43,293 bases of DNA from a virus: IMG/VR virus record IMGVR_UViG_3300025141_000209, positions 1 through 43,293 of that record; one strand, 5' to 3'. A model generated the notes under the pieces. That model was not told where the DNA came from, made no database searches, and saw only the letters and a program-made list of their open reading frames with translations. This document shows positions 15,579-29,629 of this stretch, piece after piece. The first letter of the stretch is position 1; every line of letters starts with the position of its first letter. Both the position numbers and the translations under genes were made by a program.

Positions 15579-18122
15579 ATGGGTCAAAAAAAGTCAATTA
15601 CACCTTACGTCGTTGCGGTTGAAAATCTTCGGAAGGGGAAGGTCTATCCGGTTGGAACCGTAAGGCTGCATGGCAAGAAGTATAAGCGTAAGACAACTCA
15701 TGGTTGGGTTGAAGTTCCGAAAAGGGAGCTTCGAGATGCATCTGGAAAGAAGGGTGGTCGCGCATTTTCTCAGAAGGTAAAGATCCTTGGGTCTGGCAGG
15801 GGCAGCAAGGAGGACTCAAAGCCTTCTGGTGTGGCGGCTCGTGGCGGCGGTGCCGTCGAAGACATTAAGGCCAAGTATGCAAAAAAGTATGCGCGTGTAT
15901 TGTCGGGTGACATGGGCAAGAGAGGCTTACACCCTGCGGTAAATCAGGTTAAGACTGAGGATGGTCCTGAAACTCGCGTCGAGTTTGGCGGGGCCTTTGC
16001 GATTGTGGATTTTAAGGGAGACGTAACCCTTCCAGAGGATCAGTCCAAGGTGTTGGCGGGCAAAGACTCGGATGCGGTCAAAAAATTTAATGAAGCGCGA
16101 AAAGAGTACGAGAAAGACCCAGACCGGAAAGATGTTGATAGGGAGCGAGAGGAAGAGATGTCCTCCCTTGCCAAGGTGGCTGAAGAGGGGAGCGTCGAGA
16201 AAGGGAGTCTGAACATGGTCATTGGTGTTGCTGGTAAATCACAGAATGGTGAGCGCGGGGAGGCGCTTTTCTACTCACTCCTGAGAGAGAAGATGGAAGA
16301 ATGGTATGATAAGGGGCGAACAGCCGTTCCAATTGGCACAAGAAAGACAAGAGCGGACGGCAGGACGTATATTAAGGTTGCTGCTGGAAAGTGGGCTCTT
16401 GCTCCAGAGGTGAAGAAAAAGAGGGGAAGGAAGAAGGGTGCCAAGGCAAAGCCGCACCACAAGAAGCCCGGCCCAAAGAGGAAACCCATTAGCAGTATAA
16501 AGAATAAGGCTAATGCTGATGTTCATCGGATTGGAAGGCTCATAGGTGCAACCGAGGGCGCTAAGTTGCTTGGCATTTCGGTTGAGAAGTTTAGAGAGTA
16601 CGCAACAAAGGACAGCAAGGGAAAGCACACAGGTCCAAAGGTTCCAGAAAAGCTCGTTCCAAAAGTTGTTGCGTTGCTGAAGATGGCAAAGTTTAACGAG
16701 AAGAGAGAGGATCGCGGTGCGCCAATGACGGACGATCCACAATCTGAAAAGGTTGGCTTGAGGTGGTTCAAGCGATCGAAGAGCGTCTTTTCCGACATTA
16801 TTAAGGCCATGCCAGAGGGGCCTGGGTGGGAGAAGGTGCCTCACCCAAGAACCGGGAAAATGGGCTTCCGTAGAAAAAAGGCAGGCGGGGGGTATGAGTA
16901 TTACTACCCTGATTCTGCGGCTAGGAGTGCGGCTAAGAAGATTAAGGATTCTGGACACAGGAGCGGGTTTAGGCGACCGGGCAAAGCCAAGGACGATAAG
17001 GCCGGGGCCAAGTTTAAGGGAACGCCCAAGAACAGAGAGCAGGTACTTGAAAAGTACGGGCACCTTGGCGTCATGGATCCTCCTCCAGAGAAGGCAAACT
17101 TCAAAAAAATCCAGTTCGAAGACATCGACCCCGAAGACCATGCGTCCAAGTATTGCTACAAGTGGAAGGACATGACTCGCGGCAAGAAGGACCCAAAAAC
17201 CGGAAAGCCTAAGGGTAAGTGGAAGTACGGGTATTCTGCCGAATACAAAAGATGCAGCGGTCGAGAAAAGTTTGATCGGATTGTCAAAGTCCTTGAGGTT
17301 CTTGAGGAGGCGCGAACTGTGTTCAGCGATGATACTGGAAACAAAAAGCTGTCAGACAAGGATCGATCAACGGCATGTGCGCTATCATTGATGGCGATGA
17401 CAGGAATACGAAAGGGGGGGATGGAGCACTTCGAGGAGTTTGGAACCCGTGGGGCGCTGACGATTGCAGCCAAAAACATCAAAATCAAAGGCGATGTTGT
17501 GTCTTTGGATTTTGTTGGAAAAAAGAAGCAGCAAAACATCTTCACGATTGAGGACAGGAACGTCGCTCAATACATGAAGCAAAAAATGAAGGGTAAGTCT
17601 GGTGATGACATGCTTTGGCCGGAGGTTAAGGAGAAGGACCTGGAGGTGATGAAGCAAAAGCACGGGTTTGGGAAGAGCATAAAAAACCACGACTTTAGAA
17701 CGGCTAATGCTACGCTTTATGCTGCCGAAGCGTTCGCGGCATTACAGGGGCCACCCCCTCCGCTTCCAAAAGGCGACAAGAAGCAGACCAAGCTACTCCT
17801 TAGCAAGATTACAGAGGTAAGCACGATTGTTTCTGATAAGCTAAACAACAGCCCAGCGGCAGCCGAGGAGTCCTATATACACCCGGCAGTCATATATGGA
17901 TGGCTAACCACTGCCGTGGGCGAAGAAAAGGCCAGGACCTTCTTCGGAAAGGCTAAGGGGATGGAAGGTTTAACCAAAAACAAGAAGGCCGCTTTGATTT
18001 TGGAGAAAATGATGTCTCTGAAGATGCCCGGCAAGAGATCGTGGGGCTGGACAAAAGAAGATGAAAACATTATCGAGCCAGACCAGATGGATTCGTACTT
18101 ACTTCCAGAGAGTCTTCTGTAA
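15579..18122 (+). CDS. type IB DNA topoisomerase with long basic N-terminal extension
   Basis: An 847-residue protein. Residues 525-780 form a poxvirus/bacterial-type topoisomerase IB domain: KWKYGYSAEYKRCSGREKFD, TGIRKGG (R611), FVGKKKQQN (K648-K650), KNHDFRT (R707) and SPAAAEESYIHPAVI with the nucleophile Y766. Such enzymes relax supercoils through a 3'-phosphotyrosine intermediate. The first 500 residues are Lys-rich and modular: GKVYPVGTVRLHGKKYKRKT (20-39), a second copy-like segment PIGTRKTRADGRTYIKVAAGKW (251-272), an HTH-like segment GATEGAKLLGISVEKFREYA, and GGGYEYYYP (437-444). Free topoisomerases IB are about 320 residues. The extension and the position beside the portal suggest a packaged, ejected protein, which is an inference. 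Confidence 0.88.
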   Translation: MGQKKSITPYVVAVENLRKGKVYPVGTVRLHGKKYKRKTTHGWVEVPKRELRDASGKKGGRAFSQKVKILGSGRGSKEDSKPSGVAARGGGAVEDIKAKYAKKYARVLSGDMGKRGLHPAVNQVKTEDGPETRVEFGGAFAIVDFKGDVTLPEDQSKVLAGKDSDAVKKFNEARKEYEKDPDRKDVDREREEEMSSLAKVAEEGSVEKGSLNMVIGVAGKSQNGERGEALFYSLLREKMEEWYDKGRTAVPIGTRKTRADGRTYIKVAAGKWALAPEVKKKRGRKKGAKAKPHHKKPGPKRKPISSIKNKANADVHRIGRLIGATEGAKLLGISVEKFREYATKDSKGKHTGPKVPEKLVPKVVALLKMAKFNEKREDRGAPMTDDPQSEKVGLRWFKRSKSVFSDIIKAMPEGPGWEKVPHPRTGKMGFRRKKAGGGYEYYYPDSAARSAAKKIKDSGHRSGFRRPGKAKDDKAGAKFKGTPKNREQVLEKYGHLGVMDPPPEKANFKKIQFEDIDPEDHASKYCYKWKDMTRGKKDPKTGKPKGKWKYGYSAEYKRCSGREKFDRIVKVLEVLEEARTVFSDDTGNKKLSDKDRSTACALSLMAMTGIRKGGMEHFEEFGTRGALTIAAKNIKIKGDVVSLDFVGKKKQQNIFTIEDRNVAQYMKQKMKGKSGDDMLWPEVKEKDLEVMKQKHGFGKSIKNHDFRTANATLYAAEAFAALQGPPPPLPKGDKKQTKLLLSKITEVSTIVSDKLNNSPAAAEESYIHPAVIYGWLTTAVGEEKARTFFGKAKGMEGLTKNKKAALILEKMMSLKMPGKRSWGWTKEDENIIEPDQMDSYLLPESLL

Positions 18123-18143
18123 AAAAAGGAAAGGGTGCATTAA

Positions 18144-19862
18144 GTGGCTAGAAATCGCCGTCGCGGAAAAAACAACAAGGGTAAGAAGGAGGAGTCTTCG
18201 CTTGGCCTGGACATACCAGAGCCAACAGCGTTTGAGATAGACCCTCATTATTATGAGCAGCTATACCTTGCCGAAACCCCTTCAACGGCCCACCCTGGGA
18301 CGTATGGCTTAAACTACGACCAGCTTTACTCGATGAGCCGTCTTCCGGTCATTGGCGCTATTATTCAGACAAGGATTCAGCAAATTGCTGAGTTTGCGGT
18401 TCCGCAGTCTAGCCCATATGGGAGCGGGTTTAGGGTTACTCTTCGCGATCCGAGTCAGAAGTCCAGCAAGGCCACAGACAGAATGTCACGCGAGATTGAG
18501 GATATGATTCTTCAGGCTGGCGGCAAATACGGCCAGGGTGGGTTTGAGGCGTTCGTTCGCGCATTGATGAGAGACAGTCTTACCTATGACCAGGCAAATT
18601 TTGAAGTTCTTAGAAGTCGCGGTGGAAGGCCCGTTGGCTTTGTTGCGGTTGATGCTGCTACAGTCCGAAGAGCGAAGCCGAAATCGGCTGACGCAGACAG
18701 GGGGCGAAGAACCCTCTTTGATGAAAAAGAAGCATCATACGTCCAAATGATACACGGCAAGGTTGTTGCTGATTTCCGACACGAGGAGATGGGGTGGGGG
18801 ATCCGGCGACCGAGGACGGCCCTGTGGGTTAACGGTTACGGATACCCAGAGCTTGAGGAGCTAATGAAGGTCATTACAGACCTTGCAAACGCCCAGACAT
18901 ACAACAGCGTTAACTTTACGAACGGTGTCCACACAAGCACTATTCTCGCGCTTAAAAGCAACATGACCGCACAGACTTTTCGGTCCTTTAAGCGACAGGT
19001 CATGTCAATGATGACGGGTGTTGCGAACGCCAAGCGGACACCGATTGTTCAGCTTGACCCAGAGCGGAAAGAGGAGATCCAGGCCGTCAACCTTAGTCAG
19101 ACAAACAAGGATATGGAGTACATGCAGTTTGTCGGCTTTCTTATGAAGCTGACTTGTGCTGTTTTCTCTATGGATGCGGCAGAGCTTGGGTTTGTGTTCG
19201 GGACGGAGAATCAGCAAGCCTCATTATCCCAGGGGGGTCCAGCCCAGAGGATCGTGGCTTCGAAGGAGCGTGGTCTTCGGCCAGTCCTCCGCTCTCTTCA
19301 GCAGTGGTTAAACAATTACTTTGTTTATCCATACCACGAAGACTTCCAGCTTGAGTTTGTTGGTCTTGATTCTGTGTCTGAGCAGGACAAGATCGAGATG
19401 GACCTAAAGGCTATTCGTAACTTTAAAACGATTAATGAGATCCGCCAGGAGCATGACCTTAAGCCGCTAGACAGTCCGCTGGCAGACATGATTCTTGACC
19501 CAACATACATGAACAGTGCCTTTGCAATGCTTCAGGAAGAGAAGATGGCAGAGCAGGGCGGCCCTGAAGGGATGGATCCAGAAGGGATGATGCCAGAAGG
19601 GATGATGCCAGAAGAGATGGAGGGCGGCCCCGAAATGGAGGGTGGTCAGGAGGGCGATCAACCCATGTTTGAGTTTGATGGCCAGGACGACCAGCCTGAC
19701 TTCTCTGGAGAGCAGGGCATGGACCTACTAACGCAGGCGCTGGTTGGAAAGGCCGAAGAATCAATTGGCTCAGGGAGCCTCACACCACTCACAGCACTCA
19801 AGAAGGGAGCAAAGAAGCAGCTTCGATATCGCGACAACAAAGCGTTTGTTGTGGAGGTGTAG
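18144..19862 (+). CDS. portal protein
   Basis: A 572-residue protein starting at GTG 18144. The segments SMSRLPVIGAIIQTRIQQIA, GGFEAFVRALMRDSLTYDQA, VGFVAVDAATVRRAK and FGTENQQASLSQGGPAQRIV, followed by LRPVLRSLQQWLNNYFV, are typical of HK97-like phage portals, including the glutamine-rich stretch before the C-terminal stem. Twelve copies would form the ring at the head vertex through which TerL packages DNA. Residues 470-530 are a Met/Pro/Glu/Gly-rich repeat region. It follows the topoisomerase by 21 bases and precedes the MuF-like gene, a usual head order. Confidence 0.88.
   Translation: MARNRRRGKNNKGKKEESSLGLDIPEPTAFEIDPHYYEQLYLAETPSTAHPGTYGLNYDQLYSMSRLPVIGAIIQTRIQQIAEFAVPQSSPYGSGFRVTLRDPSQKSSKATDRMSREIEDMILQAGGKYGQGGFEAFVRALMRDSLTYDQANFEVLRSRGGRPVGFVAVDAATVRRAKPKSADADRGRRTLFDEKEASYVQMIHGKVVADFRHEEMGWGIRRPRTALWVNGYGYPELEELMKVITDLANAQTYNSVNFTNGVHTSTILALKSNMTAQTFRSFKRQVMSMMTGVANAKRTPIVQLDPERKEEIQAVNLSQTNKDMEYMQFVGFLMKLTCAVFSMDAAELGFVFGTENQQASLSQGGPAQRIVASKERGLRPVLRSLQQWLNNYFVYPYHEDFQLEFVGLDSVSEQDKIEMDLKAIRNFKTINEIRQEHDLKPLDSPLADMILDPTYMNSAFAMLQEEKMAEQGGPEGMDPEGMMPEGMMPEEMEGGPEMEGGQEGDQPMFEFDGQDDQPDFSGEQGMDLLTQALVGKAEESIGSGSLTPLTALKKGAKKQLRYRDNKAFVVEV
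19550..19660 (+). repeat. low-complexity Met-Pro-Glu-Gly coding repeat in the portal gene
   Basis: Short repeats encode EGM-x-P-E-G-M-M-P-E and GGPEMEGGQEG near residues 470-505 of the portal. The repeated GATGCCAGAAGGGAT units are close copies at DNA level, suggesting recent slippage growth. Confidence 0.7.
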
Positions 19863-19863
19863 T

Positions 19864-20247
19864 GTGAAGATAAAGGTTGAGGAGTCTTTCCCAGGCGAAT
19901 TTGAAGATACGGACCCACTAGAGCTACTTGATAAGTGGGAGCGTGCCGCACACGCATGTCAACACCAGATGGAAGTAATGGTGCAGAAGGCCCTTGGCCT
20001 CCCGTCAGAATCAGAGGTGCCTGTAGATGCAACTGTCGATGCCATCACCGAGCTTGTTAGCAGGATGTCCAAGGCTTACGAGCAGAGGATGAAGACTATG
20101 GTTTCTGACATGGCAAAGGCTGTCGAGCAAGGGGGCGGTGTCGATAAGTCTGACGGCAAGGTTGCGTCGATATACTCCGACGACGATGTTCAGGCAATGG
20201 TCATGAGGGCCTTTGGCGGAATGAAGCCATGGCGGCGAAGCAGATGA
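19864..20247 (+). CDS. hypothetical helical protein between portal and MuF
   Basis: A 127-residue protein. The frame is open from 19744 inside the portal gene, but GGAGG close before GTG 19864 marks the real start, one base after the portal stop. It is mainly helical (ELLDKWERAAHACQHQMEVM, AITELVSRMSKAYEQRMKTM) with an acidic start. It overlaps the MuF-like gene by 19 bases. It may be a head-assembly helper; no family is recognised. Confidence 0.65.
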   Translation: MKIKVEESFPGEFEDTDPLELLDKWERAAHACQHQMEVMVQKALGLPSESEVPVDATVDAITELVSRMSKAYEQRMKTMVSDMAKAVEQGGGVDKSDGKVASIYSDDDVQAMVMRAFGGMKPWRRSR

Positions 20248-21272
20248 GTGCATTCGATGCAGGCGATGATGCCGCAAAGGTTGCGGCGCTGCACCACGAG
20301 GCGTTTCTTGTGGAGATGTTTGGCGAGTCATCAACGACGCCAGACCGTTTAAGTTTCTTAATCAAGAAGGGATACTTAAAACGGTCGGATGTCGGGAGGT
20401 TGGGGCTAAAGACAAGCGCCGGGCTCATGGACCCGGTTGAGTTTGTTATACAGATGAGCGCCGTAATGAGTTCAGCACCACCAGAATCCGTTCAAAAAAT
20501 GAGGCGCTGGCCAGTAAAAAAGTGGATTGGCATCATAGGGAGGGAGATAGCGTCACAGCCTGATGGGGGGGCTGAAGATACGATAGGTGTTCCCACAACA
20601 AACAAGCCGCTGCCGCCGGAAAGCGTAACTGAGCAAATGGCCGCCATGGTCCCAGAAAGGCTCGGCACTTCTCACCGCGCAGCGTATGAGCAGGCGAGAG
20701 AGCGAAGCGGCGAGTATGTCCGAGGTCTTGGAAACAAAATAAGCGAAGACGGACGGTCGATAGTCATGGAGGCCTGGAAGGAGGAGGACATCGTTCGCCC
20801 GGTAGATGAGCTAAAGAGGCAGGCCACCATTGATGAAATCAGGGCTGAGACTTCAGACGGCGTCTTGCGGGGAAAGGCGGCAAAAAAGGTTGCAAGCAAC
20901 CTTGGCCACAAGACCGGAGAGTGGAGCAGGGACTGGCTACGCATTGCACAAACAGAGATGCAGGGCGCTTACAATGACGGGCAGGTTATCGGGGCCGTGA
21001 AGATTTACGGCGACCGCGCTATGGTTGCGAGGGTGCCAGAGCCCTCTGCGTGTCAGCATTGCAAGTCTCTTTTTATACAAGAGGGAAAGCCTGCGGTATT
21101 TCTTGTTCGTGATCTTGTTGAGAATGGAACTAATGTTGGGCGGAAGGCACCCCAGTGGCAAGCAACAATCTGGCCGGTGCATCCAAATTGCCGATGTGAT
21201 ACACAGGTTGTACCGCCAAATTTTGCCTTTAATGATGACTGGATACTTGTGGCAGAGGTTTTTGATGAGTGA
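20229..21272 (+). CDS. MuF-like head morphogenesis protein
   Basis: A 347-residue protein. The C-terminal half carries the MuF signature: DWLRIAQTEMQGAYNDGQV (235-253), then VPEPSACQHCKSLFI with C275 and C278, and IWPVHPNCRCDTQVVPP with H318, C321 and C323, a Cys/His set that probably binds metal. MuF proteins are minor head components made next to the portal and are often ejected or involved in head assembly. The N-terminal 130 residues are helical and may contact the portal. It overlaps both neighbours slightly, so the three genes are translated together. Confidence 0.88.
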   Translation: MAAKQMSAFDAGDDAAKVAALHHEAFLVEMFGESSTTPDRLSFLIKKGYLKRSDVGRLGLKTSAGLMDPVEFVIQMSAVMSSAPPESVQKMRRWPVKKWIGIIGREIASQPDGGAEDTIGVPTTNKPLPPESVTEQMAAMVPERLGTSHRAAYEQARERSGEYVRGLGNKISEDGRSIVMEAWKEEDIVRPVDELKRQATIDEIRAETSDGVLRGKAAKKVASNLGHKTGEWSRDWLRIAQTEMQGAYNDGQVIGAVKIYGDRAMVARVPEPSACQHCKSLFIQEGKPAVFLVRDLVENGTNVGRKAPQWQATIWPVHPNCRCDTQVVPPNFAFNDDWILVAEVFDE

Positions 21273-21453
21273 TGAAGATAAAGGGGTTGGTAGTGACGGC
21301 GTCCTTTCAACCCAAAACGACATTTTAGGTTACTGGTCGCTAGGTCCAAAAGGGAGGGGCCGGGTTGACAGCCTTGTGCAGAAGTTAATTAAAAGCAGAG
21401 ATAATAACGAGGAAGCCCCCGATGAAAAGCCCGTTCAAGAAGGCGATAAGTAA
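21265..21453 (+). CDS. small hypothetical protein
   Basis: A 62-residue protein starting at ATG 21265, with AGAGG upstream, overlapping the MuF stop by eight bases and the helicase start by 32 bases. The segment DILGYWSLGPKGRGRVDSLV and an acidic tail are visible. The overlap pattern and ribosome-binding site support a real gene; the function is unknown. Confidence 0.5.
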   Translation: MSDEDKGVGSDGVLSTQNDILGYWSLGPKGRGRVDSLVQKLIKSRDNNEEAPDEKPVQEGDK

Positions 21454-24400
21454 CGCCACAGCGAATGCTGAATCGCCACACCCATCTTTCGATGAATTTC
21501 TTTATCGGGTGGTTCCGGTTGTTAAGTCAGAGGCTGCCGACGAAGACGGCCAGCATGAGGCTGTCGATACCCTTGATGCAGACTCAAACCCGTTCCTTTT
21601 CCTGATCGAAAAGGCTCGGACGCATAAGTATATTATGCGGATACCAAACAAAAGACCCCCTCCAAAGTATAGGTACATATACGACATTAAGCGTGGCAGG
21701 AAGTACGTTGGTGACGAGGAACACCTTAAGGAGGGAAACAAAATCAAGGTTAAGCATGAGGATGGCCATGCACACCTAGAGGTTTTGGAGTCAAAAGATG
21801 GCAAGGTAAAGGTTAAGCACAGTGAGACTGGGGATGTTACTGAGCATGACATGTCCGATTTGACTAAAAAGATTCAGGAAGACCACAAGGGTGCAATTAG
21901 CCACCACAAGAACAAGCTAAGGAAACGCATAGTTGACACCATGAGCTATGGATCTCCCGCCCAGCAAAGGGTGGCCATGGAAAACGCCGCTTCGTATGGC
22001 GTTTACAACATGAGCATGTTTGATTCCGAGAAAGCATGGGGTGGGGAAAAGGGTGAGGTTGCACAGACGCTTCACGACGACCTTGTTGGCGACATCGAGG
22101 TAAACCTACGAGATGATGTTCTAAAGTTTTCAAACCCCCAGGGCGCAAAAACGGGCTTAAGAAAGCACCAGGCAGAGGGCGCTCAAATGGCAATAAACTC
22201 ACTCGAAAAAAGAGATGCGTTTATGCTGCAAGATGAGACGGGGCTAGGCAAGACGGTTACAGCCCTTGCCACGATCAAGGAGTCGGCTCCAGATCGCACT
22301 CTCTATGTTGTACCAACCACAAATGCGGCCCAGCTAAAGGTTCAGTTGCAGGGTGATGCAAGCCTCTACGACATGGAGATAAAGAACGCCCTTGGTGAAG
22401 ACACGTCAAAGGGCGGCATATATACTGCCTCATACGAGGAGCTTTACGACACTGAGGCTGTTCTTGATGATGACGGAAACCCGGTAATGGACAAGAAGGG
22501 TGACCCCAAAAGGCGTCACATTCTTAGGGATGAGTTTAAGAACGGCTTCGACTTTATTGTCTTTGATGAGTCTCACAGCATGTCAAACCCTGACGGGGTT
22601 AGGGCGCAGGCGTGTGTGGAGTTACAGGGCTTGTCAGACAAGATCATGTATATGAGCGCAACTCCTTTTACGGATTTTAAAGACATGCACTACATGAGAA
22701 AGATGGGCATGTTCAGTGACGGTGCAGAGTTTACGTCCTGGGCGGCATCTTTGGGTGCAAGCGTTGGGGGAGGTGGGGAGCCTCCAGGCGACCTAACGTC
22801 AAACATAGGCAGGTCTGACGATCCGACACCGCTCGTCGCTGTTGCCGCATACATGACGCATAACGGTATGACCGTTCGACGTTCTCCCAACCTGGACAAA
22901 ACACTCAAGGCGAGCTTTCAGGAGATTAAGTCTGACAAGATGCGCCCAGAGCACTCAAAGGCTTTTGAGGTTGCTGAACAGATCCGTGACATTGCTATTA
23001 ATTCTGGAGTGAAGGCGTTCAACGCGGGGGCCATGATGAGCATCTGGCGTCGTCAGATGTGGGAGTGCGTTAAGGTTGAGGATGCAATCGGACATGCAAA
23101 AAAGGCAATAGATGAGGGCGGGAATGCTGCGTTGTATTTCTCTTTCAAAAAGTTTGATCATGCACCGTTAAAATCGTTTGCGAAGCAGCTTTCTAGCTCG
23201 GAAGGTCAGGCAAAATTTGGCATTGATCCCGAAAAAGGGAAAGAAGCGGCGGCTAGTATTAACGAGCTTATTGCTACGATGCCAGATTTTGACCCAATCG
23301 AAGAGGTCAAAGCGCAAATGTCGAAACACATTGGCGCAGACAAGATTGCAGAGATTCACGGAGCGGCAAAATCAGACGCAAAACAAGAGGCGGCTGATTA
23401 TCAGTCCAACAAGAAACAATTGATGATCTCAACAATATCTAAGGGCGGAACAGGCCTTAGCCTTCACGATGAAACTGGTGACAGGCCAAGGACGCAGATC
23501 AATCTGTCTCTTCCCTATACGGCGGTTGAGCACCAGCAGCTTGGTGGTAGATCCCACAGAATGGGAAGCATGTCAGACACAAACATGATCTATCTTGTTG
23601 GGGATCATGAGAGTGAGCAGCGCGTCGGCGAGGTTGTTGCGGCAAAATTAAGGACTATGGGCGCTGCCGTTGCCGGAGATGCTGGCTCAAACCCTGACGC
23701 TAGAGACTTGCAGAACTGGGAGTTTAGCAATTCAGAGGGTACTCACGACCAGCGAGTTGATGGTGTTGCTGCGGCCTCAACTGATGGTAAGACGGACGAC
23801 CCAGTGGCAGAACTGACTCGATCCGCCTTCAAGGACTACATGGAAAACCTGCAAGCTGGGGGAGACATTTTCCACCAGACAAGGCAGGCGGTTGGTCGCA
23901 CTCGCGAAGCAAAGCAAGACACGAAGCATCGAGAGTCTGCCGCAAAGATTCATGCTGCCGGGTTTGACATTAAAAGCCGTGGTGACGTTTGGACTGTTGA
24001 CTTCGACAACAAGACGCCGCACGGAAAGCTCCTGAACGACCACATTCGAAGCAGCCTCAAGAGAGGCACTCAATACGAAAAACCAGAAAGCGTAGAAAGA
24101 AGGCAGGGCTTTTATGCCAAGCCGGAAAAAGGTAAGGGCAAGGGAAAGCAAGTCGCTGTAATTAGAGACAAGCAGGCGTTTACCGAGCTTGCAAAGAAGC
24201 TCAACAAGAAAAATCTTGTGCCAGATGGCGACCATGGTGCTGTCCCTGGGTGGTCCGGTGAGCAGTTGTCTGACCACAAAGAAGGGCTTAAATCCGTAAA
24301 GAAAGCAGATTCGTCTTTTTCAACAATGCTTTTGGGTGCCGTCATGTCTGGCACAGCCGTTAAGAGGAAGAAGAAGAAAAAGGTGTCTAAGGCCGCAGAC

Positions 24401-24529
24401 CTTGTGGGACGAAAAATACGAAAACTGCTTGAAGAGGGTTACCCATACGAGCAAGCAATAGCTGTTGCTATTAGGATGGGTAAGAAGGAAAAACTTGTGA
24501 AAAACCGAACCCCCCGTCGAGAGGCATAG
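21422..24529 (+). CDS. SNF2/SF2-type helicase, large virion-associated protein
   Basis: A 1035-residue protein. A helicase core spans about residues 245-735: GLRKHQAEGAQMAI, motif I DETGLGKT (271-278), motif II FDESH (381-385), motif III SATP (412-415) and motif VI QQLGGRSHR (705-713), the set seen in SNF2-like ATPases that move on double-stranded DNA. The N-terminus has a KYRYIYDIKRGRKYVG module, and the C-terminus has basic tails and GRKIRKLLEEGYPYEQAIAV, a module resembling one in the gene at 25644. SNF2 helicases between MuF and protease genes fit the published idea of phage 'polyvalent proteins' carried in the virion and ejected to protect or remodel incoming DNA. Packaging is inferred from position and modules. 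Confidence 0.85.
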   Translation: MKSPFKKAISNATANAESPHPSFDEFLYRVVPVVKSEAADEDGQHEAVDTLDADSNPFLFLIEKARTHKYIMRIPNKRPPPKYRYIYDIKRGRKYVGDEEHLKEGNKIKVKHEDGHAHLEVLESKDGKVKVKHSETGDVTEHDMSDLTKKIQEDHKGAISHHKNKLRKRIVDTMSYGSPAQQRVAMENAASYGVYNMSMFDSEKAWGGEKGEVAQTLHDDLVGDIEVNLRDDVLKFSNPQGAKTGLRKHQAEGAQMAINSLEKRDAFMLQDETGLGKTVTALATIKESAPDRTLYVVPTTNAAQLKVQLQGDASLYDMEIKNALGEDTSKGGIYTASYEELYDTEAVLDDDGNPVMDKKGDPKRRHILRDEFKNGFDFIVFDESHSMSNPDGVRAQACVELQGLSDKIMYMSATPFTDFKDMHYMRKMGMFSDGAEFTSWAASLGASVGGGGEPPGDLTSNIGRSDDPTPLVAVAAYMTHNGMTVRRSPNLDKTLKASFQEIKSDKMRPEHSKAFEVAEQIRDIAINSGVKAFNAGAMMSIWRRQMWECVKVEDAIGHAKKAIDEGGNAALYFSFKKFDHAPLKSFAKQLSSSEGQAKFGIDPEKGKEAAASINELIATMPDFDPIEEVKAQMSKHIGADKIAEIHGAAKSDAKQEAADYQSNKKQLMISTISKGGTGLSLHDETGDRPRTQINLSLPYTAVEHQQLGGRSHRMGSMSDTNMIYLVGDHESEQRVGEVVAAKLRTMGAAVAGDAGSNPDARDLQNWEFSNSEGTHDQRVDGVAAASTDGKTDDPVAELTRSAFKDYMENLQAGGDIFHQTRQAVGRTREAKQDTKHRESAAKIHAAGFDIKSRGDVWTVDFDNKTPHGKLLNDHIRSSLKRGTQYEKPESVERRQGFYAKPEKGKGKGKQVAVIRDKQAFTELAKKLNKKNLVPDGDHGAVPGWSGEQLSDHKEGLKSVKKADSSFSTMLLGAVMSGTAVKRKKKKKVSKAADLVGRKIRKLLEEGYPYEQAIAVAIRMGKKEKLVKNRTPRREA
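24496..24517 (+). repeat. 22-bp boundary repeat, copy 10
   Basis: Reads TGTGAAAA-ACCGAA-CCCCCCGT, a perfect match. It lies inside the last codons of the SNF2 helicase gene, and GAGAGG right after it serves the GTG start at 24529. Confidence 0.92.
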
Positions 24530-24756
24530 TGAGAGAGCCAAAATTCCACATTGGAACGGTTCGGTGCGAGCATTGTGACGCAACGATCGGATCCTTCAGG
24601 GATGGTAAGCTCAAGATTACCGTTCGCAGCAGACTTGTCGCCATACGCAATGATGGGTTTGCCGAAACGCGCTGTCCTGAGTGTAAGTCGTCAACCGTTT
24701 TGCCGCTTGTTGCCTACAACGGCTCTGGCGGAAAGCGGAAGAGGGCAAGAGTTTGA
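24529..24756 (+). CDS. zinc-ribbon protein, Com-like
   Basis: A 75-residue protein starting at GTG 24529, which overlaps the helicase stop (TAGTG) and has GAGAGG five bases upstream. It has VRCEHCDATIG and TRCPECKSSTVLPLV, two CxxC pairs about 30 residues apart, and a basic tail. The layout is close to the small Com zinc protein of Mu, a translational regulator, but similarity is limited to the cysteine pattern. Confidence 0.65.
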   Translation: MREPKFHIGTVRCEHCDATIGSFRDGKLKITVRSRLVAIRNDGFAETRCPECKSSTVLPLVAYNGSGGKRKRARV

Positions 24757-24800
24757 TTTAGCTCCCGCCCTGTGCGGTACTATAAAAATATAGATACTCG
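24753..24800 (+). promoter_or_regulatory. possible promoter / short inverted repeat
   Basis: The 83-base gap before the gene at 24840 is AT-rich. CTATA-AAAA-TATAG (24780-24793) is a small inverted repeat that contains TATAAA. A weak -35 (TTGATT, 24753-24758) is 19 bases from TACTAT (24778-24783). It may be a promoter with an operator, but neither box is strong. Confidence 0.3.
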
Positions 24801-24839
24801 CTGTTGTATGTGTTGAAATAACAACCAATAATTTGGGAC

Positions 24840-25637
24840 ATGAACGTGAAAACAGACATATTTCAGTCATTCTTATTAAAGGGAAGGTCTTTTCCTATCG
24901 GGACTATCCGAACGCACGGCGGTGTAAAGAAGAAAAAAACCGCTCAGGGATGGGTCCCTGTTGCAGTTGGCAGGCCCACGGCAAAGCCTGAGGATGATCA
25001 TGAAGGGTCGAGCGCTGGGCCAGAGGTTGTTAGCACTGACGGCATTGAGGGTTTTAAGTACCTTATGGGCGAGGTAAGCCGTTTGCTTCGGGACGAGGCC
25101 TCTGCCGCTATTGCGGAGATGAAGGGGTCGAGAATCAGGGCAGAAAAGGAAGAACTAGCCGAGGATGCCCGTACGCTTCTTATCGACTCTCGCCTTGCAG
25201 GCAAGCTGGCGGGAAAGAAGAGCATCACCCTGAAGGATGCGACTGCGGCTAGGGATCTGGCCGAGGAGGCATCCTTGGTTTTGGCGGACGCCCCCGGCGG
25301 CGAAAACAGCAAGAAGAAGTGGAATGAAAAAACAAAAAAGGAAAAGGCCGCCACGAGGAATTATGGTCGGCTTGAGTTTCTTCGACACGACCTCAACAAA
25401 GAGATAAAAAAACAAAAAATGGGCAAGTCCCAGGAGTTAGAGATGAACAAGACAGATCGAATGACGCTTTTTGACGCTGTTCAGGTTGCCAAGGCTATGG
25501 ATGCTAACGGTGGCGCTGACGCTCCTTCTAAAATGTCTCCCAAGTATGATGGCGACGACATGAAGGGCGGCAAAAAGAAGAAAAAGAAGAAGAAGAAAAA
25601 ACGCTCTTGGAAGGTTCCAGGCGAAGTCCCGGCTTAG
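24840..25637 (+). CDS. basic hypothetical virion-associated protein
   Basis: A 265-residue protein. Its N-terminus, LLKGRSFPIGTIRTHGGVKKKKTAQGWVPV, repeats the module at the N-terminus of the topoisomerase IB (KGKVYPVGTVRLHGKKYKRK). The middle is helical and Ala/Glu-rich. The C-terminus has a run of ten or more lysines followed by RSWKVPGEVPA. No catalytic motif is seen. The module may mark proteins that enter the head or bind the packaged DNA. It is placed between the SNF2 helicase and the protease genes, which fits an internal head protein. Confidence 0.68.
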   Translation: MNVKTDIFQSFLLKGRSFPIGTIRTHGGVKKKKTAQGWVPVAVGRPTAKPEDDHEGSSAGPEVVSTDGIEGFKYLMGEVSRLLRDEASAAIAEMKGSRIRAEKEELAEDARTLLIDSRLAGKLAGKKSITLKDATAARDLAEEASLVLADAPGGENSKKKWNEKTKKEKAATRNYGRLEFLRHDLNKEIKKQKMGKSQELEMNKTDRMTLFDAVQVAKAMDANGGADAPSKMSPKYDGDDMKGGKKKKKKKKKKRSWKVPGEVPA

Positions 25638-25643
25638 TGGTGG

Positions 25644-26426
25644 TTGCTTTTGAGTGATCAAATATATTACGGCCCTCGTGGCGGAAAGTGGGAAGACCCT
25701 GAGCACACAAGGCCGTATCACGACCGATCCGACAAGCCGGGTGACGTGGTACAGGCTCTAATGGGAAGAGCTTCGCGTCTTTTGCAGTATGCTGATGAAG
25801 ATGAGGCCGTTAGGCGTCTTCTTGATGACGGATACACCAAGGACCAGGCATACCTTGCGGTTAAGGCAGGGAAGCTGTTGAACAGGTTTCGCCAACAACG
25901 GAGCAAGCCAGTGGAAAAATCAAAGGGTCCATTTCAGCAGAAGATGGAAGAGGTGTTGAAGCAAGTTCACCCCCTTCTTCCTGAAGCTAACGGTGAGCTT
26001 GCGGACTACGGAAACCCAAAGCACGCCCCTGGTGTTGGCTGGCTTCCGGTGAACGACGGCACTGGTGGATGGTTTAGGCGAAGCAGCAAGGGTACAGACT
26101 TGTTTGACGTTTGGTATCCAGAGCATGATCAGATCATAGATATCGGGCGTGCCGCAAAGCTCCCAGACAAGAAAGAGTATATGATCCCATCACTGTGCGG
26201 AACGATGCAGATTGAGATGATTGAAAACCGTCGCCAGGTTGAATACGCAAAGCAAAACGAAGACGTTGCTGTTTCTAGCGGGTTTAATGTTGTGAGGGTT
26301 GAGTCGGTTCTTGCCATATCCAAGTTGCAGAAAGTGATAGCTGGTTATCACAAGCAAAACTTTGAGCGGATGCTTGCGGTGAAACGGACGCAATCGTCTA
26401 TTCTTGGCCCACCGAGGCCGTTCTAG
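25644..26426 (+). CDS. hypothetical virion-associated protein with YYGPRGGKW module
   Basis: A 260-residue protein starting at TTG 25644 (a TTG at 25650 is also possible). The N-terminus IYYGPRGGKWEDPEHTRPY is a short module seen, from memory, in other phage head-region proteins. RRLLDDGYTKDQAYLAVKAG (residues 57-76) resembles the C-terminal LLEEGYPYEQAIAVAIRMG of the SNF2 helicase. The second half (GVGWLPVNDGTGGWFRRSSK, then DLFDVWYPEHDQIIDIGRAA) is a separate alpha/beta domain that I cannot name. It is the last gene before a promoter/terminator segment at 26458-26537. Confidence 0.65.
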   Translation: MLLSDQIYYGPRGGKWEDPEHTRPYHDRSDKPGDVVQALMGRASRLLQYADEDEAVRRLLDDGYTKDQAYLAVKAGKLLNRFRQQRSKPVEKSKGPFQQKMEEVLKQVHPLLPEANGELADYGNPKHAPGVGWLPVNDGTGGWFRRSSKGTDLFDVWYPEHDQIIDIGRAAKLPDKKEYMIPSLCGTMQIEMIENRRQVEYAKQNEDVAVSSGFNVVRVESVLAISKLQKVIAGYHKQNFERMLAVKRTQSSILGPPRPF

Positions 26427-26548: not shown

Positions 26549-27316
26549 ATGATAGCTGGAGACATATTTAGGTTATGGTCGCCATTCGAACTGCATAACG
26601 CAGACGATGTGGAGAAGGCCGGTAAGAAGGCTAAGACTGGAAAGATCGGCGGTATTGCAAGTACCGAACAGATCGATGCAGACGGAGAGGTTGTCCTTCA
26701 GGAGGGGCTTGACTGGGAATGGTTTAAGTCTAACGGATACTTTACATACGAGCACCCGATGAGCGTCGGGAACATTGTTGGAGAGCCAACAAACATTAAG
26801 ACCACCGAGATTGACGGTGTTAAGGCAACAACTGTTGATGGTTTGATTTATCTGTCAGACCCTGTTGGAAAAACCGTATACGGCAAGGCCCTTGCAATGA
26901 AAAAGGCAGGCGGAACTCGTCGTCTTGGGTTCTCTATTGAGGGTCAAGTTGTTGAGCGTGATGGTGCCACCATCAAGAAGGCTAAGGTTTACAGTGTAGC
27001 CATAAGCCCGCGACCTAAAAACAATCTAACATGGTGGGAGCCGCTCATGCGTAGCGTTATGGCTGGTTATCCCGTGCCGCAGGGTGGTGTTAACCATACC
27101 GGCAGCTTTCAGCCCCTAATTCCTCAAAGCCTTCAGGGTGGAGAGGGTGGTCGTATCTCCACGGCCACTTTTGAGATCGGCTCTGTAAAGGAGCAGTTCT
27201 TAAAGGACCTCAGTGTTGAGGATCTGGAGGTAACTCGCGTTCTTAAGTCAATGCCTGGCTTAAGCTGGACGCAAGGTATTCAAGTAGTCGCCGCACTGCG
27301 GCATAAGAAATCCTAA
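26549..27316 (+). CDS. prohead maturation protease
   Basis: A 255-residue protein of the HK97-like phage prohead protease type. FTYEHPMSVGNIVGEPT contains the likely catalytic His (H69), DGLIYLSDPVGKTVYGKALA and TRRLGFSIEGQVVERDG follow with the catalytic Ser (S129), then KVYSVAISPRPKN. The enzyme cuts the scaffold and possibly internal proteins as the head matures. The C-terminal 90 residues are a tail that may be removed by self-cleavage. It is directly followed by the scaffold and capsid genes. Confidence 0.82.
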   Translation: MIAGDIFRLWSPFELHNADDVEKAGKKAKTGKIGGIASTEQIDADGEVVLQEGLDWEWFKSNGYFTYEHPMSVGNIVGEPTNIKTTEIDGVKATTVDGLIYLSDPVGKTVYGKALAMKKAGGTRRLGFSIEGQVVERDGATIKKAKVYSVAISPRPKNNLTWWEPLMRSVMAGYPVPQGGVNHTGSFQPLIPQSLQGGEGGRISTATFEIGSVKEQFLKDLSVEDLEVTRVLKSMPGLSWTQGIQVVAALRHKKS

Positions 27317-27327
27317 TTGGAGGTAGC

Positions 27328-28065
27328 ATGAGCAGCGCAACCGAATTGCGTAGGGCGCTTTCAGCAGCCAGTATCGACGCTCAAGTCGCGGACGACATCA
27401 TTGCCAAAGCCGTGAAAGCTGGCGAAGTTGTAGATGACGTAGTCACGCCTGGGCAGATTGATGCTGCTATGGAAGCCATCAAAAAGAGTCTCGGTGAAAT
27501 AACCGAGGAAGAAGAAGTTGTAACGACACCCGTCGAAACCGTGGAAAAAGCATACGCTGATGAAGATGCTGATGAGGCGGATGAAGACGAAGACGAAGAC
27601 GACGAAGAAGAAGAAGACGAAGACGAAGACGAAGATGAGGACATGGGTAAAGCATGGCCGCTTGTTGACGTTATCGCTAAGTCTGCTGACGCTATTGTTC
27701 GCGAAGTAGCCCAAGACCACCGTGCAATGGCTAAGGCCTACGGCACGATGGCTAACAGCGTAACAACGTTAGCTAAGGCTATGAAAGACCAGGCCGCTGT
27801 TATCAGCAGCCTTCGTAGCCAACTTGATGATGTCAGCAAAGCTCTCGGACAGCCCGTTCAACGGCGTTCCGTAGCCGAGTTAGATGTAATTGAGCAGCCT
27901 GCTCAGGCTGCTGTATCTGTTGAGGGTGATCTAGTTCAGAAAGCTCTTGGCGAATTGAAATTGCCAGAAACTAACGATGTGCGTAAGCGTCAACTCTATG
28001 ACGCGATTGCAGCGATGGAATCCGGTATAAACCCAGCCGCTATTGCCCAGCGGTACAGCCTCTAA
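27328..28065 (+). CDS. scaffolding-like protein with acidic tract
   Basis: A 245-residue protein located between protease and capsid protein, the usual scaffold place. GGAGG precedes ATG 27328. Residues 78-105 are almost only Asp and Glu; the rest is helical (VREVAQDHRAMAKAYGTMAN, AAVISSLRSQLDDVSKALGQ), as expected for scaffolds that form coiled coils. The C-terminal ELKLPETNDVRKRQLYDAIA may bind the capsid protein. The acidic tract could bind basic internal proteins or repel DNA during assembly. Assignment rests on position and composition. Confidence 0.72.
   Translation: MSSATELRRALSAASIDAQVADDIIAKAVKAGEVVDDVVTPGQIDAAMEAIKKSLGEITEEEEVVTTPVETVEKAYADEDADEADEDEDEDDEEEEDEDEDEDEDMGKAWPLVDVIAKSADAIVREVAQDHRAMAKAYGTMANSVTTLAKAMKDQAAVISSLRSQLDDVSKALGQPVQRRSVAELDVIEQPAQAAVSVEGDLVQKALGELKLPETNDVRKRQLYDAIAAMESGINPAAIAQRYSL
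27558..27645 (+). repeat. GAAGAC/GAT low-complexity coding tract
   Basis: Simple repeats of GAA, GAC and GAT codons encode the Asp/Glu tract of the scaffold-like protein. Slippage at such tracts can change length between related phages. Confidence 0.85.
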
Positions 28066-28075
28066 GGAGAGCATA

Positions 28076-29629
28076 ATGTTGACTCTAGATGGATTACAAG
28101 GTCTGGGTGGGAGCCAGGTTCCCGTTCGCGATCTTGTAGAACTTAATAAGGCCCTTCAAACACAGGGGCTCTACAAAGCTGGTGCTGCTGCTGGTCACCC
28201 GACGCCAATGACTACGTCGGCAAGCGACTTCGCACCTCTTATTCCACAGTCGATTCAGACTGTTCTTGACTCCGCAACCTTCACGGAAAGCATGGTTAAA
28301 TTCTTCCGCATGCTCCCCAAGGTTCCTGTCGGAAGCACCGTTCACGAAGCAATCGTGATGAACGAGCACGGCTCGCTACACCTTGACCCCTTCATCGCTG
28401 AAGGTGGAAAGAACATTCGCTCCAGTGCAGAATACGCACGTAAGAGCGTCAAGGTTCGCTACTTGGCCGAGCTTCGTGAAATCACGGACGTTGCAACCAT
28501 GGTTAACACCATTGGTGGCGGCGCTGTCAGCAAGCAGGGACTCGCTCTTGAGACTCAAGCTGGAACGACATCGCTTCTTGGTAAGCTAGAGCGTAGCCTT
28601 TTCTGGGCAAACTCTGGACTTAGCGACCTCCACTTTGACGGAATCTTTGGTCAGATTGGCGAGGTTTCTTTTCCCGGCGCTAACCAAACAGTAAGTGTTA
28701 AGGTTGGTGCTAACGATAGCAATTACGAAGACCTTAAGGGCGCTGCTCTTACTTCGCAGAAGCTGCTGGAAGGGATCTACAGCGTCTACTCCGCTCCAAA
28801 CTACGGAATCCCGACTGCCATTCTTGTTGAGCCACGTACTTACGCGGCACTACAGCAAGAGGCATTCAATAAGGCCCGTTTTGGACTGGAAGCAAACGTT
28901 GGGGCTCCTTTGACACTCTACCAAGGACAGCTTCAAATTGCTGGCCCAACTGGTTCTGTGCCAATCCATAGCTGCCCCCTCCTCCTGCCTCCGCAGACTC
29001 CTCCAAGTGCTGCAACTAATCCCAACTCAAGCGCTGCTTTGGCTAAACCTGCTGTTGCCCTTGCGGAACTGGATGCTGGTGCTCTTGCCGGACTTGGTGA
29101 TTACGGCGGTGCTGGTTCTAACGTGAACGGGCTTAAGGACGGCGCTGGAACGGCGGACGCTTCTGATGCTGGTGCTGTAAGCTACAAGGTTATGTCTGTT
29201 AATGCGGAAGGTCACAGTGAACCTTCTGATGTTGACACTGTAACTCTTGATGCTGATAGCCGTGGTGTGAGTTTGACCATTACAGACAACGGCTTGACCG
29301 TCACAAACTTGTACTACCGAGTATACCGAACCGCACCAGGCGGATCGACGAATGCTGGTGACTACAAGTGGGCATTTGATGTTCCTGCCAAGTCTGGTGG
29401 AAACACGGTCATTGTAGATGACTTCAAGATGCGTGCCGGAACTGCTCCTGCGTTCATCCTGCAAGCCACGCCTGATGTTATGATTTGGACACAGTTGCTC
29501 GACTTCTTGCGTCGTCCATTGGCGCAAACCAACACGAGCGTACCGTTCCTGCTTATGCTTTTCGGTTCACCGTTTGTTAAAGTTCCTTCCAAGAACTTCA
29601 TCTTCGGTAACTGCAAGGTTGGTATCTAG
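28076..29629 (+). CDS. major capsid protein with Ig/FN3-like insertion
   Basis: A 517-residue protein with AAGGAG before ATG 28076, followed by a strong terminator, and using the highly expressed type of codons (CGT, GGT, CTT, GCT). Residues 45-300 fit an HK97-fold capsid protein (FAPLIPQSIQTVLDSATFTE, VHEAIVMNEHGS, YLAELREITDVATMVN, IPTAILVEPRTYAALQ). Residues 365-455 look like a fibronectin-III/Ig-type domain (SYKVMSVNAEGHSEPSD, NLYYRVYRTAPGGSTNAGDY) placed before the last capsid strand (MIWTQLLDFLRRPLAQTNTS, NFIFGNCKVGI). Such domains decorate capsid surfaces. Removal of an N-terminal part by the protease is possible but not visible. Confidence 0.85.
   Translation: MLTLDGLQGLGGSQVPVRDLVELNKALQTQGLYKAGAAAGHPTPMTTSASDFAPLIPQSIQTVLDSATFTESMVKFFRMLPKVPVGSTVHEAIVMNEHGSLHLDPFIAEGGKNIRSSAEYARKSVKVRYLAELREITDVATMVNTIGGGAVSKQGLALETQAGTTSLLGKLERSLFWANSGLSDLHFDGIFGQIGEVSFPGANQTVSVKVGANDSNYEDLKGAALTSQKLLEGIYSVYSAPNYGIPTAILVEPRTYAALQQEAFNKARFGLEANVGAPLTLYQGQLQIAGPTGSVPIHSCPLLLPPQTPPSAATNPNSSAALAKPAVALAELDAGALAGLGDYGGAGSNVNGLKDGAGTADASDAGAVSYKVMSVNAEGHSEPSDVDTVTLDADSRGVSLTITDNGLTVTNLYYRVYRTAPGGSTNAGDYKWAFDVPAKSGGNTVIVDDFKMRAGTAPAFILQATPDVMIWTQLLDFLRRPLAQTNTSVPFLLMLFGSPFVKVPSKNFIFGNCKVGI

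Follow-up and report, generated by a model that had tools for sequence, protein, structure and literature searches.

The window, the whole stretch of 43,293 bases analysed here (IMG/VR virus record IMGVR_UViG_3300025141_000209), carries at its centre a head gene cluster that comprises a topoisomerase IB, an SPO1-like portal, a MuF-like protein, an SNF2-like helicase, two genes referred to by their start positions as g24840 and g25644, a prohead protease, a scaffold, and a major capsid protein (MCP) (Table 1). The original prediction, whose coordinates and gene calls were correct, had pointed to short modules shared between neighbouring proteins of this cluster, which could be head-targeting tags, protease-processing sites or DNA-binding tags. 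Modules of this kind, combined with a short lysine motif that precedes them, were found in the window phage and in dozens of uncultured relatives. The arrangement suggests that the modules could be tags located right after prohead-protease cut sites, on proteins loaded into the head.

Recurring modules of the head gene cluster

Four recurring classes of modules were recognised, namely M1 (PVGTVRxHGG...GWV), M2 (GPYIGPRGGKWADPQHTIPW), M3 (HKYIRRVP...YRYYY), and M5 (PPGxGW...GGYRRR...YEYWYP). The non-redundant copies, mostly within multidomain proteins, amount to approximately 97 for M2, 40 for M3, 22 for M5, and 11 for M1. Searches for relatives with single proteins returned only near-identical contigs or one cousin, and strict M1 and M3 patterns matched little, whereas a looser, degenerate DNA pattern of M2 succeeded, matching 77 viral stretches that yielded the ~97 M2 copies after removal of near-duplicates and three chance matches. 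Copies of M3, M5, and M1 were found by profiles in the same loci, which are ~80 related loci designated here by L numbers; because these loci were mostly fetched by the M2 pattern (a few were obtained otherwise), the figures given for M1, M3, and M5 copies are minimum values.

The module that the topoisomerase N-terminus had been said to share with g24840 is real, residues 17-46 of the former aligning with residues 12-41 of the latter at 53% identity (E = 7e-7, BLASTP among 11 neighbouring proteins). Three M1 copies are present in the g24840 homologue of the related contig L005, and further copies occur in L041, L009, L067, and L025. The loose copy reported near residue 251 of the topoisomerase is weak, with a BLASTP E of 9.7 and membership only in the hidden Markov model (HMM) seeded with it, although YDK↓G precedes it (the arrow marks a candidate cut throughout). 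Three other segments listed in the original prediction were assigned to classes: GYEYYYP (topoisomerase residues ~410-446) to M5, KYRYIYDIKRG (SNF2 residues ~61-99) to M3, and YYGPRGGKW (N-terminus of g25644) to M2. The original prediction had overlooked an M5-like segment located midway through g25644. Profile comparison strengthened the similarity within M1, M2, M3, and M5, the copies of which cluster at the portal. However, it did not sustain the proposed pair LLEEGYPYEQA/LLDDGYTKDQA of the SNF2-like helicase and g25644, with E = 0.14-0.6 between the window copies and no other copy found by HMM in the ~80 related loci. The g25644 homologue in L005 has neither the LLDDGY segment nor M2, and the pair may reflect a fortuitous similarity or a small helical motif.

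At four-fold degenerate sites, copies within one contig share the third codon base at a frequency of 0.34, compared with 0.35 predicted from codon usage. Since this agreement only reaches the codon-usage expectation, the modules are conserved at the protein level, and a recent duplication is contradicted. A self-folding beta-hairpin or mini-domain was also rejected for M2 (AlphaFold mean predicted local distance difference test, pLDDT, of 62, no strands), and the model suggests that M2 is more likely a linear peptide. The pLDDT of the g25644 C-terminal domain was 46.

A lysine motif shared with the scaffold, protease, and capsid protein

An element common to the modules, [DE][DE]-L-[E/x]-K-[A/G/S], lies directly upstream of them and was overlooked in the original prediction. 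When the stretch of ~13-15 residues before the module was scored, [LIVMFYW]xK[AGS] was present in 90.5% of 137 non-redundant M2 and M3 copies, compared with 7.9% of comparable intervals in the same proteins. All twenty residues were tested at the third position of the motif, where Lys was enriched 11-fold and the others at most 1.5-fold; Glu reached 1.2-fold only, which does not correspond to a specificity of the T4 gp21 type. The residue following Lys was Ala (77), Gly (28) or Ser (19), Leu was dominant two positions before Lys, and acidic residues were favoured ahead of this Leu. The distance from motif to module is not fixed and differs by several residues among copies. The site was also present before 10 of the 11 M1 copies and 11 of the 22 M5 copies. 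Within the window, the topoisomerase contains the sites NLRK↓G and IIK↓A, while SNF2 has LIEK↓A and g24840 has LLK↓G. The topoisomerase and g24840 show a short N-terminal segment and then the motif (19 and 14 amino acids, respectively), as do proteins of the relatives, such as those with MRFVLPLAK↓A and MMDAIEGLVRMIK↓G. An upstream R-h-V-h "targeting strand" seen by eye was discarded because of its low frequency (7 of 124 copies, with a background of 1.4%).

The same motif is abundant in proteins that build the head. With Lys at P1, 133 motifs were counted in the scaffolds of 12 phages from the locus set, against 16.8 expected from shuffles (z 29), and no enrichment was found in these scaffolds with R, E, D, Q, N, S or T replacing Lys (19 motifs for P1 Glu, 24.7 expected). 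Proteases contain 102 motifs (26 expected), while window genes outside the head cluster contain 14 (22 expected). All 14 readable N-terminal arms (N-arms) of the capsid proteins have [L]xK[AS] ending a short N-terminal segment, the propeptide, and the candidate maturation site of the window MCP is GLYK45↓AG (or LNK36↓AL), near nt 28148-28178. The capsid protein of Staphylococcus phage 812 has 463 amino acids, and its PDB chains 9row, 9rox, and 9roz, which comprise residues 25-463, start after V-V-K24. The protease and scaffold of SPO1 are enriched for the motif (z 5.5 and 8.8, respectively), as are those of phage 812 (4.0 and 5.2), and the protease of a Listeria relative shows a weak enrichment.

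A copy of the capsid N-arm (F-x-PLIPQS / GDGFALRxESLE) was observed at the C-terminus of the protease in the window, its relatives, SPO1, 812, and the Listeria phage. An MCP HMM matches the proteases of the relatives with a best E of 6e-18, and the arm copy retains the site in most cases. This copy is possibly a way of docking into the shell, or a self-cleavage site.

In known phages, the substrates of the prohead protease are the capsid protein, often the scaffold, and, in the systems consulted, also the protease itself (PMC7411985). Since the scaffold, the capsid propeptide end, the start of the 812 chain, and the protease C-terminus all show the motif, it reads as a prohead-protease site. 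The original idea of protease-processing sites draws strong support from sequence, as the motif before the modules matches that of these head proteins, but the modules themselves are unlike cut sites; judged by sequence, the short motif preceding the module is the likely cut site.

Portal clustering, candidate cargo proteins, and neighbouring genes

Nine contigs exceed 90 kb in length; of the 44 M2 and M3 copies that they carry, 43 lie no more than 15 kb from the portal gene, with 12.5 expected (p ~1e-22), and the remaining copy would be at 15.4 kb if its contig is circular. The locus set contains 46 portal, 43 MuF-like, and 25 protease open reading frame (ORF) matches to the window families. 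As to the proposal of head-targeting tags, an association with the head gene cluster is strongly supported by this clustering, whereas packaging itself is what we infer.

The M2 DNA pattern was also searched in 84,980 bacterial and archaeal genomes as a negative control, where it matched 87 stretches, two of them true modules (L111 and L147). That the modules are common bacterial motifs was rejected, the two genuine cases being beside a phage portal and the other matches having no such context. L111, from a Planctomycetota metagenome-assembled genome (MAG), and L147, from a Myxococcales MAG, are the sole bacterial-genome contigs with true modules, and the ORFs of L111 are the same as those of the viral contig L040. 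These two contigs hint at the hosts, or they are mis-binned phage contigs. Since no M2 or M3 copy was found among 50,697 phage records at E <= 10, in a search with short tblastn queries of low sensitivity, the tag system seems confined to uncultured phages.

Module-bearing proteins of the relatives have domains of zeta-toxin-like kinases, ART-PolyVal (ADP-ribosyltransferase), PAPS reductase, ddrB-type ParB, inorganic pyrophosphatase (InPase), SAM lyase, and SNF2 helicase. The modules sit before, between or after the enzyme domains, and outside the Pfam domains in the examples where Pfam matches; for instance, ART-PolyVal of L018 (residues 229-363) is flanked by M2 copies at 190 and 377. The candidate cargo of the window includes the topoisomerase IB, in which M1, the possible M1', and M5 are followed by the catalytic domain, and the SNF2-like helicase, in which the enzyme follows M3. 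The window cargo proteins have one recognised enzyme each, and at least two unrelated effector-type domains on one polypeptide, as expected of polyvalent proteins, are present in L007, L018, and L008.

Peptides of the form QLxLF, similar to the bacterial sliding-clamp binding motif, occur 17 times in 94 module-bearing proteins, against 0.86 expected (L007, L012, L016, L067, and others), often adjoining LxK[AGS] sites as in KAEQLGLFD. Injected pieces may therefore bind the host DNA sliding clamp. A zinc-ribbon-like C-terminal segment, CPxCKxxMxKSLxxCPxCG, which contains a KS site, is common to proteins of L006, L019, L026, L030, L068, and L081.

Regarding the neighbouring genes, the window portal shows up to 38% identity to portals of Herelleviridae-type phages such as SPO1, and the small ORF overlapping the end of the portal gene may be a second scaffold or an extra core protein. 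The genes g24840 and g25644 share one reading frame, with a single TAG stop between them (25635-25643) and a TTG start without an obvious ribosome-binding site. Read-through at this TAG would supply g25644 with the upstream protein; the L005 homologues are in different frames.

Table 1. Genes, modules, and candidate sites of the head gene cluster in the window.
Feature	Position	Strand	Evidence
Topoisomerase IB, 847 amino acids	15579..18122	+	Pfam Topoisom_I residues 555-762, E 1.2e-16
M1 in topoisomerase, after candidate site NLRK19↓G20	15627..15719	+	BLASTP E 7e-7 to g24840
Possible third M1 copy, after YDK245↓G246	16311..16403	+	BLASTP E 9.7; HMM seeded with it
M5 in topoisomerase (GPGWEKVPHPRTGKMGFRRKKAGGGYEYYYP), after IIK409↓A410	16806..16925	+	22-copy family
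Portal protein, SPO1-like	18144..19862	+	Pfam/PHROG portal
Small ORF overlapping portal end, rich in xxK[AS]	19744..20247	+	4 sites vs 0.7 expected
MuF-like head protein	20229..21272	+	Pfam Phage_Mu_F E 0.001; PHROG minor head protein E 4e-7
SNF2-like helicase with N-terminal M3	21422..24529	+	Pfam AAA_34/ResIII/SNF2
M3 in SNF2 (HKYIMRIPNKRPPPKYRYIYDIKRG), after LIEK64↓A65	21602..21718	+	profile E 4.2e-16; HMM family
LLEEGYPYEQA segment, unsupported as module	24416..24484	+	E 0.14-0.6, no further copies
g24840: N-terminal M1 after LLK14↓G15, rest Lys-rich, without known domain	24840..25637	+	
M1 in g24840	24873..24962	+	BLASTP to topoisomerase
g25644: N-terminal M2, M5-like segment mid-protein, without known domain	25644..26426	+	
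M2 in g25644 (YYGPRGGKWEDPEHTRPY)	25653..25727	+	profile E 3.4e-17
M5-like segment in g25644 (PGVGWLPVNDGTGGWFRRSSKGTDLFDVWYPEH)	26028..26123	+	HMM i-E 1.3e-4, absent from seed
Prohead (head maturation) protease, candidate LxK↓[AGS] enzyme	26549..27316	+	phrog_1028 E 2.3e-34
Capsid N-arm copy in protease C-terminus (AGYPVPQ...FQPLIPQSLQ)	27062..27190	+	BLASTP to MCP E 0.004
Scaffold, nine LxK[AGS]-type sites vs 0.9 expected	27328..28065	+	
Major capsid protein	28043..29629	+	phrog_752 E 9.2e-54; N-arm comparison

Proposed processing of putative head-loaded proteins and alternative explanations

The sequences point to the modules as tags right after prohead-protease cut sites, carried by proteins that would be loaded into the head and co-injected with the DNA, a reading with a probability of about 0.72. 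An extended version, in which the capsid-maturation protease of many uncultured SPO1-like phages processes effector polyproteins in the prohead at LEK↓A-tag junctions, stands at even odds. Under such dicing, capsid maturation and effector arming would be one event, and each effector would exit with a standard tag (M1, M2, M3 or M5). The segment before the first site would act as a removable targeting propeptide, similar to the capsid targeting sequence (CTS) of T4, bringing the precursor into the scaffold core, and the SPO1-type prohead protease would cut after the Lys of the motif. At maturation, this protease would degrade the scaffold and trim the capsid protein, itself, and the cargo, and the released cargo pieces would have A, G or S at the new N-terminus, followed by the aromatic-basic tag. 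The tag may help to present the site, or may keep the freed piece attached to DNA or the portal up to ejection, which is the least certain step.

Several observations weigh against this reading. Within the window, g25644 begins directly with M2, with no cut motif before it, and in the arm copy of the protease the site reads LMR↓SV, with Arg in place of Lys. Overall, the topoisomerase, SNF2, and g24840 contain no more sites than shuffles do; only the position before the modules is telling, and the shuffles keep composition but not secondary-structure periodicity. The interval examined lacks a site in approximately 10% of the M2 and M3 copies and in half of the M5 copies. Outside the module-bearing phages, the scaffold of the Listeria relative LMTA-94 shows no clear enrichment for the same motif (3 against 1.6 expected), no M2 or M3 copy was detected in phage 812, and the start residue of the 812 chain is that of the sequence as entered in the PDB records. 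The literature search returned no paper giving the mature capsid N-terminus of an SPO1-like phage. The module-bearing phages themselves are all uncultured, and their cleavage and virion content are what we infer from sequence.

Alternatively, the LxK[AGS] motif and the module could be one uncut docking peptide that binds the scaffold or portal as a targeting signal. The clustering of the modules at the portal and the internal location of many of them, which fits repeated docking, agree with such a peptide, as does the motif in the scaffold, where it could be a coiled-coil-like self-association pattern. It is nevertheless unlikely, given that the same motif is at the end of the capsid propeptide and at the 812 chain start in the PDB records, that a spacing varying by several residues is odd for a single binding peptide, and that Lys with a small next residue resembles a P1-P1' preference. 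The third function offered in the original prediction, DNA-binding tags that keep the cargo on the packaged genome with processing being incidental, is doubtful: the classes combine many aromatic and basic residues with Gly turns, and T4 internal proteins contact DNA via lysines (PMC3012670), but M2 is just weakly basic and the preceding cut motif is left unexplained. DNA binding and tagging after a cut site could, however, be compatible.

Two further explanations concern the origin of the modules and the timing of the cut. Recombination linkers, that is, DNA repeats for swapping cargo domains between phages, would suit modules located before and between shuffled domains and the gain and loss of modules by neighbouring genes (L005 compared with the window), but the third-base agreement described above indicates little homology at the DNA level and largely refutes this explanation, which is scarcely tenable. 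It is also improbable that the cut takes place only once the cargo has been injected, with a host protease or the polyvalent proteins' own metallopeptidase domains as the enzyme. Zincin metallopeptidases are proposed as polyvalent-protein processors by Iyer et al. 2017 (PMC5512222); however, the motif is shared with the scaffold and capsid protein, which are prohead-protease substrates in related systems (PMC7411985), and no Pfam peptidase family was found at E <= 0.001 in the proteins of 15 relatives, where a sub-threshold metallopeptidase is possible.

The reading of the modules as tags after prohead-protease sites can be compared with known systems. In the T4 CTS and gp21 system (PMC3012670, PMC7411985), diverse cargo (internal proteins IPI-III and Alt) shares the tag region only, and a short N-terminal propeptide is cut inside the prohead before the cargo is ejected with the DNA. 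Similarly, the genes described here lie in the head cluster, and the topoisomerase, g24840, and proteins of relatives have a short N-terminal segment and then the motif, unlike g25644. They differ in that the candidate site ends in Lys, not Glu, the protease is SPO1-type, the conserved tags follow the site and would not be removed, and sites and tags repeat between domains. A comparable case is the gp245 protease of SPN3US (AXE motif), which cuts the capsid protein, ejection proteins, and itself, and the C-terminal propeptide of which is proposed to target it to the core (PMC7411985). In contrast, the SPN3US motif is another one, its propeptides are mostly long and N-terminal, and repeated tag modules are unmentioned in the sections consulted.

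Polyvalent proteins, as far as covered in the accessible text of Iyer et al. 2017 (PMC5512222), are large and multidomain, have overlapping domain types, and are many in portal-terminase phages; they are predicted to be packaged, injected, and processed by metallopeptidases, whereas these tags and a Lys-specific prohead-protease code are not described there. DarB of phage P1, which is likened here by description and not by sequence, needs only its N-terminal 30 residues to carry a reporter into the capsid, and repeated internal tags are not described in the available portion of that source (PMC9024508). Finally, in SPO1 and 812 (Herelleviridae) the portal, protease, scaffold, and capsid protein are homologous to those of the window and identically ordered, with the same xxK↓[AS] signature. 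However, the four head genes are together in SPO1, with no cargo gene between portal and protease, where the window has its cargo.

Targeting and cleavage of the T4 kind are already known, while the literature searched yielded no description of the tags, of their recurrence between domains or of the Lys code; likewise, no paper with GPRGGKW was found in that literature, most subscription papers being outside the search. The sequence rule [Leu]-x-Lys↓[Ala/Gly/Ser] plus one of the four tags predicts head entry, cut points, and injected pieces for proteins of many uncultured phages, and its modular signals could be used to load foreign proteins into capsids. If the rule is true, unannotated multidomain genes near portals would become predicted, testable injected effectors, and the targeting-plus-cleavage idea of T4 would extend to SPO1-type heads with a different specificity.

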